This document shows positions 5,673 to 35,584 of a stretch of DNA of 64,000 bases, piece after piece. The stretch comes from Salinirubrum litoreum (lineage in GTDB: Archaea; Halobacteriota; Halobacteria; Halobacteriales; Haloferacaceae): assembly GCF_020567425.1 (NCBI RefSeq), contig NZ_JAJCVJ010000002.1, forward strand, positions 186,001 to 250,000. The letters are read 5' to 3'. The notes beneath the pieces were generated by a model. The model saw only the letters and a list, made by a program, of their open reading frames with translations, was not told the origin of the DNA and ran no database searches. Within the stretch, counting starts at the first letter, position 1. Each line of letters starts with the position of its first letter. Position numbers and translations under genes: made by a program.

Positions 5673-5844
5673 GGGCGGGGGTTCGGCAGGTCTGCGCTTA
5701 ACGGCTTCGATGACTGGTACGCGTACTTCGATGTGTGGGTTGTCGAATCGGTCGCTGGTTGGAACTGGGTCGAGTCGGTCGCAGATGACGAGGGGTGAAA
5801 GCCCTGTGGCGATGTGGATGATGTCGAATCAGTTGGTGAGAACA

Positions 5845-6004
5845 AGAGGTGAAAGCCCCCGCGCTCTCGACCACCGGGAGAGACAAGCTCTCCCGAGTCT
5901 TCGTCACCGGCGCGGAGCGCCGGTTTCCAGCGGGACCTCCGGTCCCGCCCTGCTTCCGTCGTCCGGGATGGATCGAGAGCGCGGCCCCTTTCAGTCCCGC
6001 CCGA
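5845..6004. repeat. inverted-repeat element, copy A
   Basis: The left arm, 5851-5870, reads GAAAGCCCCCGCGCTCTCGA. The right arm, 5973-5992, is its inverse apart from a GGG/CCC difference. The match continues imperfectly inward for about 10 bp. The interior carries further hairpins, such as CGGGAGAG...CTCTCCCG at 5874-5894. The same end sequences occur at 14935-15087 (full) and 35381-35420 (ends joined), so this is a dispersed element. It encodes no protein; it is either a MITE-like element or a structured RNA. Confidence 0.75.
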
Positions 6005-6147: not shown

Positions 6148-6289
6148 GCGTGTCGTGAGCTGAAATCTCGTCAGACTGTCCCGGTGTGGTTTGCGGTCGG
6201 CGCGCGAGAAACGCGCGAGGGAGAATCGCGGGCGGTGCGGAGAGCGATTCGAGGCTGGGGAGGATCGAGGTGCGGTCTGCGGTGTGGGT

Positions 6290-14934: not shown

Positions 14935-15087
14935 CGAGAGGTGAAAGCCCCCGCGCTCTCGGCCCTCCGGGACTCGTTGCGCGCTTCCCTCACGAGGGCG
15001 CGTCGCTTCGCTCCGCGCCCTCGATCAGTCCAGTGCTTACATCGTCCGGGAGGGACCGAGAGCGCGGCCCCTTTCAGTCCCACCCGA
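14935..15087. repeat. inverted-repeat element, copy B
   Basis: The left arm is at 14943-14961 and the right arm at 15057-15075, in the same orientation and with the same end words as copy A: CGAGAGGTGAAAGCCCCCGC on the left and GCGGCCCCTTTCAGTCCCAC on the right. The interior differs from copy A but also folds strongly; GAGGGCGCG...CGCGCCCTC forms a 9-bp stem. Conserved ends and a variable, structured middle argue for selection on structure or for transposition ends. Confidence 0.75.
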
Positions 15088-34841: not shown

Positions 34842-35584
34842 TCGCGTCTCCGAGTCGGCGGTTCTCTGCTCGGGGATGGTCGTCTCGCCGAACCTGATGG
34901 GGTCGTCGGTCGTGCTATCGGGACGGCTAGCAGGTGGCTGAACGCAGAGCAGAACTGCCTCCGCGACCGCAACGACACCGTTACTCGATCTTGCGCACCT
35001 GCCAGCGGAACCGCGACAACACAGCACCTCGGTCCTCCCCACCCTCGGCGGGCGCACGAGAGCGCCCGCCTCCCTCGCGCGCGTCGTGGTCGCGCGCGCC
35101 GAGAACTGTTGCGGGGTCACACGTTGCGGGGTCACACTCGGATCGGGGGGTGTACGCACTTTCGAATCTCTCTGTCCCACTCACAGACGACCGTCTCGTC
35201 ATCCGACACTCCCGACGACGACCCGGATCCCGTATCGGACGCGATCTGCTGGCGACCGGCCCCGACCTGTATCCGAGCGATAGCGAGTGGCCTGCTCGCA
35301 GGCCGCGTCGCCAGCAGTCGGGGAGGCTCGGGGACGACTCACTGGGTGACGACCAGTAGCGACGCGATGGGTCGCCCATCTCGGGTGGGACTGAAAGGGG
35401 CCAGGGGTTTTCACCCCTCGTACTCTGCGACCGATTCGACCGAGTTACAATTGGGATGTTCGACCGAGTCGTACCGGAGCTATGCCACCGAGTTCCTCGC
35501 GACACACTCGACAGTACGCCCGACGACTCCACCGAGAAAACCAGAACTCACGCCACGAGTCGAATCCACGGCCCGCGTTCCCAC
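34842..35584. other. 743-bp gene-free region with repeat copy C
   Basis: No gene is supported: the open frames have poor codon bias and unrelated composition. It contains repeat copy C (35381-35420) flanked by degenerate units such as CGACCGATTCGACCGAGTT. The rest appears unstructured apart from GCGCGCGTCGTGGTCGCGCGCGCC-like palindromic GC runs near 35080-35100. Confidence 0.65.
35381..35420. repeat. inverted-repeat element, copy C (ends only)
   Basis: TCGGGTGGGACTGAAAGGGG at 35381-35400 is the inverse of the right end of copies A and B. Right after it, GGGGTTTTCACCCCTCG is the inverse of the left end. The whole interior of about 110 bp is absent, as in a collapsed or minimal copy. It is in inverted orientation relative to A and B. 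The flank CGTACTCTGCGACCGATTCG matches the flank of copy A, so the flank travels with the element. Confidence 0.7.

Follow-up and report, generated by a model that had tools for sequence, protein, structure and literature searches.

What is a non-coding repeat of about 150 nt, with fixed ends and a changing interior, doing in the genome of a haloarchaeon? The question is raised by the window, a 64,000-nt stretch of Salinirubrum litoreum DNA. An earlier note, made from its letters alone, listed three copies and proposed either a MITE-like element moved by a transposase elsewhere or a family of structured RNAs. The end words were found at all three places and all three copies are real, but they are three among dozens. 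The 15-nt word GGGACTGAAAGGGGC occurs 64 times exactly (32 per strand) and a further 19 times with one mismatch in the whole 4.06-Mb genome (five contigs). Because the 64 exact copies compare with 0 for the same word read backwards, the window copies of the end words are far beyond chance.

We defined the plus strand of the element as the strand with GGGACTGAAAGGGGC at the left end. Copy A (positions 5851-5998, minus strand) is a full element of 148 nt. Its left end word GGGACTGAAAGGGGC (5984-5998, minus) comprises the unpaired GGGACT, the GAAAG strand of a foot helix, the GGG of an internal loop and the first C of the stem, and its right end word GGGGCTTTC (5851-5859, minus) comprises the last G of the stem, the internal-loop GGG and the CTTTC strand of the foot helix. 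Copy B (14943-15081, minus) is also full, 139 nt long, and its core is of the common type I; our covariance model matches it at 88.1 bits (C2:200943-201081). Copy C (35387-35412, plus) is a collapsed element of 26 nt, GGGACTGAAAGGGGC-CA-GGGGTTTTC, which has both ends and no interior. The interiors of A and B had been described as different; they are not unrelated, however: the core of B is the common one, and A shares the outer stem but has a core expanded by additional hairpin modules. The fold of either copy is far better than that of shuffled sequence (z = -3.6 for A and -6.2 for B).

The surroundings of the copies also recur. A solo right end, AGGGCTTTCACCCCTC (5790-5805, minus), lies 46 nt beyond copy A in the same orientation, next to CGACCGATTCGACCGAG (5765-5783, minus), a flanking repeat that in this genome typically stands on the right of copies and does so at copy C as well (35426-35444, plus). 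The intergenic module CGAGGCTGGGGAGG, repeated to the left of many copies, is found at 6250-6263 (plus) and, differing by one mismatch, at 35034-35047 (minus), left of copy C. Solo right ends (GGGGCTTTC plus a lineage-specific flank) iterate at intervals of 45-50 nt without a change of orientation, as at window positions 5790-5805 and at loci L283, L341 and L024; such iterations stand beside 11 of 72 copies in this genome and 22 of 241 copies elsewhere. The module at 6250-6263 and 35034-35047, GAGGCTGGGGAGGA, is a second dispersed intergenic repeat, often to the left of the hairpin elements, with 27 copies per strand at 54 places in the genome and 0 occurrences of its reversed control. A TATA-like box (TTTATA/TTTTTATACC) lies about 200-250 nt to the left of some copies in this genome (L005, L009, L018, L019 and L025), most clearly in the last three, and longer transcripts running through the element are possible.

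All copies examined were intergenic and non-coding, in agreement with the earlier view that no protein is encoded. Relative to neighbouring genes, as predicted by a home-made gene caller, the copies of this genome had no preferred orientation (++ 10, -- 10, +- 8, -+ 6), and a riboswitch or leader role was rejected on this ground. The site of copy A in 20 relatives was too diverged for an empty-site comparison to define boundaries.

Read from GGGACTGAAAGGGGC, the element consists of that word, a long variable stem, a structured core, the returning stem and GGGGCTTTC. In the outer part, the unpaired GGGACT is followed by a 5-bp foot (GAAAG/CTTTC) and then by a GGG/GGG internal loop; what had been read as a 'GGG/CCC mismatch' consists, when a single strand is followed, of two GGG runs opposite each other within a helix. 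Past the loop there is a stem of about 10-12 bp, free in sequence and constant in pairing, and then a second stem. The type-I core is made of short helices split by internal loops of the GA/A, AA/GCA and A/A types, followed by an apical hairpin. In 11 copies the same ends as in type I enclose a second core type, TGGTCG..GACCCCTATC-hairpin-GATATGTCGCTGAGCGACCGC. Full elements, whose ends pair, are typically 95-139 nt long; further hairpins lengthen many copies, in this genome to as much as 380 nt, and collapsed copies measure 26-53 nt, including a form, GAAAG-GGGCCGGGGG-CTTTC, that recurs in seven contexts. Interiors differ widely among the copies of this genome.

GGGGC flanks every interior, and for this reason we considered the interior to be a site-specific insert with GGGGC as its 5-bp target duplication. 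That reading was dropped, as the ends of the interior are not conserved and no precise empty site, GAAAGGGGCTTTC, turned up as such. The only match with a GGG loop, L228, proved to be an ordinary element with a stem starting TTTC. Several further observations concern the interior. The second core fold with family ends is present at L082, L086, L092, L095, L096, L102 and L110. The extra hairpin modules inside long elements (for example L036, L052 and L064 of this genome) recur in both orientations, and look as if hairpins insert into hairpins. DNA folds of long elements contained 89 GNA triloops and 51 of the reverse-complement TNC triloops; GNA triloops were dropped as a sign of DNA hairpins, since folded apical loops are not uniformly GNA. 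In the DL31 plasmid phalar01 (L113:2006-3251), a putative insertion sequence interrupts the interior of an element, with its ends now 1.2 kb apart.

We then asked how the fold has been maintained. For 48 diverse type-I copies the covariation score was 0.478, against 0.162 when shuffled and no more than 0.095 when slid; for 92 model-aligned copies it was 0.513 (shuffled 0.144; slid at most 0.083). The 92-copy alignment is fitted to the structure, and the 48-copy alignment, made from sequence alone, agrees with it. In the 92 copies, 94.6% of cells pair and both-side, compensatory changes occur at 28 of 33 base pairs. The foot helix covaries as well (CAAAG/CTTTG, GAACG/CGTTC, GGAAG/CTTCC and GAAAC/GTTTC), the first of these forms being present throughout one genus (G009, G038). 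GGG facing GGG is retained in 85 of the 92 model-found copies, including lineages with a compensated foot helix, which bears out the earlier suspicion that the 'bulge is wanted'. Among type-I copies, mean identity was 90% in unpaired core columns against 72% in paired ones, and the GA, the AA and three single A residues of the unpaired core were invariant in 48/48. Mismatches in the outer stem were G·T in 67 cases against A·C in 24 (binomial p = 7e-6, ignoring the relatedness of copies). Core and ends were found in the same relative direction 240:2. Thus, from the invariant unpaired core purines and the excess of G·T over A·C, there is strong evidence that the fold of one strand is selected, either as RNA or as single-stranded DNA.

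The family is found across the class. Genome-wide and haloarchaeal searches, as the earlier note had proposed, located the exact end word in 210 of 391 Halobacteria genomes (61 of 86 genera), and the covariance model, likewise proposed there, matched 333 of the 391 (76 of 86 genera). Exact copies reach 74 in other genomes, within an overall range of 0 to 74; the model scan scored at most about nine candidates per genome, and its copy numbers are lower bounds. The two outcomes named beforehand as counting against the element, ends at only three places without conserved pairing and arms inside an annotated transposon with a transposase, did not occur. In a sample of the phylum, no model match fell outside Halobacteria, all 36 positives lying within the class, and the 80 loci listed from a scan of named genomes were from Halobacteria only. 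Viral contigs gave 0 matches, and phages nothing but weak 32-nt matches in Serratia phages. Annotated plasmids gave ten matches, all in unannotated DNA. Five plasmid copies (L111, L113, L114, L115 and L118, from Halomarina, DL31, Halorientalis, Haloprofundus and Haloplanus) adjoin a divergently transcribed 'DNA-binding protein' gene, an OB-fold protein in DL31, sometimes with a TFB gene alongside, in what appears to be a conserved plasmid module. Low-copy genomes had no gene neighbour in common, and a conserved genomic home was rejected on that basis.

In one lineage the mode of movement can be recognised. Near-identical copies in genome G239 define a unit consisting of a terminal repeat, a reversed element, a centre of about 31 nt, a forward element and a second terminal repeat. 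The terminal repeats (about 45 bp; GGTACTGTTTAGATTAGC / AGTAGTGTTTAGATAAGC) agree with the ends of an insertion sequence of 698 bp in G280, which encodes an IS6 transposase (NF033587, E 1.3e-61). Perfect 8-bp target duplications flank four of nine element-bearing units and all three intact insertion sequences, while control alignments average about 2/8. IS6-type repeats and 8-bp duplications are shared by G239, G280 and G135, and IS6-like ends surround the copy in L359. The IS6 family typically makes 8-bp duplications, and MITEs have been noted for it (PMC7986276). The data show that, in one genus, element dimers between IS6-type ends with 8-bp duplications are a true MITE. The search for flanking target duplications succeeded in this lineage; outside it no precise unit boundaries from which to judge were found, and no duplication was recognised. 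At L312:1500-1563 we also observed a 64-bp, almost empty pair of IS6-type terminal repeats flanked by the TGTGACAGC repeat, a remnant of the unit minus its elements.

Dimers of other lineages carry other ends, for example AACAGCMAGAAAGCCCC. In other genomes 100 of 243 copies have an inverted back-to-back partner, against 0 of 73 here. At one orthologous site in genus g29, the same flanks enclose three different interiors, the first present in four genomes, the second in at least two and the third in G115; G102 has a deletion or collapsed state, and in others the element is absent. The copies of the present genome are mosaics whose break points lie about 80 and about 280 nt to the left of the element. 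From these mosaics and interior swaps we infer recombination through the shared ends. Covariation, the two core types and the swaps at the orthologous site uphold the description of a structured element with fixed arms and changeable cores.

Several explanations of the family were weighed against these data. The lineage of G239, G280 and G135, together with L359, would fit ordinary IS6-derived MITEs throughout, but IS6 transposase gave 0 matches in this genome (G000; 64 copies) and in G026, G131, G383 and G281, all copy-rich. The IS6 terminal-repeat pattern is also absent from this genome, and other lineages have other flanks. IS6 was accordingly rejected as the general mobiliser, and this account, which we regard as highly improbable for the family, is refuted in general and true for one lineage; the proposal of a MITE moved by a transposase elsewhere holds for that genus and fails for this genome. 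It is also very unlikely that the copies are REP/REPIN-like elements whose folded single strand is acted on by a Y1 (IS200/RAYT-type) transposase. A selected single-strand fold and the common inverted pairs in other genomes are what it predicts, but no Y1 transposase (PF01797) was found in the copy-rich genomes G026, G311, G231, G146 and G198, although one may have been active there in the past, and IS200/RAYT was rejected as the general mobiliser.

Two further accounts concern the fold itself. Hairpins can template their own correction, and arm-to-arm copying by replication errors could mimic stem covariation without selection in decaying palindromic hitch-hikers; collapsed and mosaic copies are indeed common. 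Such correction should erase mismatches, yet the GGG/GGG and core internal loops persist, and it predicts no bias of G-T over A-C, which was observed. This account is already disfavoured, and we hold it to be distinctly unlikely. Alternatively, the copies might be host-functional structured non-coding RNAs, trans-acting or in untranslated regions, that were multiplied by duplication. Covarying variable helices, invariant unpaired purines, tolerance of G-U on one strand and class-wide conservation all speak for RNA, but there is no enrichment of TATA-like promoters within 100 nt of the elements, no T-run terminator pattern at them, no preferred gene orientation, no conserved locus and a copy number that ranges down to zero. 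Rfam 15 covariance models gave no gathering match in the window and none at E<=1 in ten element loci. The structure proposed for an RNA family was thus borne out; its RNA nature is a possibility, with no promoter or terminator adjoining the element. Because a purely selfish passenger has no obvious need for conserved internal-loop purines, we give a host-functional RNA a small but real chance. Overall, the earlier interpretation is partly supported.

Known systems offer partial likenesses. Bacterial REP and REPIN sequences are palindromic, intergenic, often in inverted pairs and non-autonomous. The present family shares these properties; unlike REPs (about 20-40 nt), its members measure 100-380 nt, have a conserved internal-loop core and occur without Y1 transposase. 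The dimers of G239, G280 and G135 resemble IS6-family MITEs (PMC7986276) in their ends and 8-bp duplications, but such ends occur only in some lineages, and the hairpins are found without them. Haloarchaeal PATEs are also transposase-free and palindromic (PMC3119063), but their palindromes are near-terminal and they lack terminal inverted repeats, whereas our element forms a single hairpin over its whole length. The description that comes closest is that of the SMR-A repeats (HqIRS42, HqIRS43 and HqIRS55) of Haloquadratum walsbyi. These are about 110 bp long and non-coding, have prominent terminal inverted repeats and tens of copies, make no target duplication and are mobilised in an 'enigmatic' way; copies of one type share >95% identity, and the palindromes of IS605 elements or PATEs are their insertion sites (PMC3119063). 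Compared with that published description, rather than with the HqIRS42/43/55 sequences, our family is alike in size, terminal inverted repeats, lack of coding, copy number, haloarchaeal host and an equally unidentified mobiliser; it differs in spanning the class and in interiors that vary freely with pairing kept. It is not filed as a member, because the >95% identity feature fails. Apparently the family is undescribed so far: nothing alike was found in Rfam or in the literature searched, where the word GACTGAAAGGGG did not occur.

On balance, we lean towards small mobile repeats of an SMR/MITE-like kind, non-coding and non-autonomous, that make up one family throughout Halobacteria and have a single-strand fold under selection. 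The unit is one long hairpin: its ends (GGGACT-GAAAG-GGG ... GGG-CTTTC) are fixed, its stem varies in sequence yet is always paired, and its core usually takes one conserved fold, sometimes another, often with extra hairpins. Such units may spread as passengers of different transposases or of recombination, lineage by lineage, while recombination through the shared ends would homogenise copies and exchange interiors. The plus-strand fold may be kept for a protein that reads it as single-stranded DNA or RNA, candidates being an enzyme of mobility and a host factor by which the hairpin is tolerated or cut. More tentatively, the elements could represent a new class of archaeal mobile element that needs a folded single strand (RNA or single-stranded DNA) in order to spread, the fixed ends and a required GGG/GGG loop serving as a chassis for exchanged structured cores. 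The family would be among the most widespread non-coding elements of the whole archaeal class. For annotators, many unexplained intergenic repeats of haloarchaea would be one family, and the conserved single-strand fold makes the movement of haloarchaeal 'small mobile repeats' directly testable.
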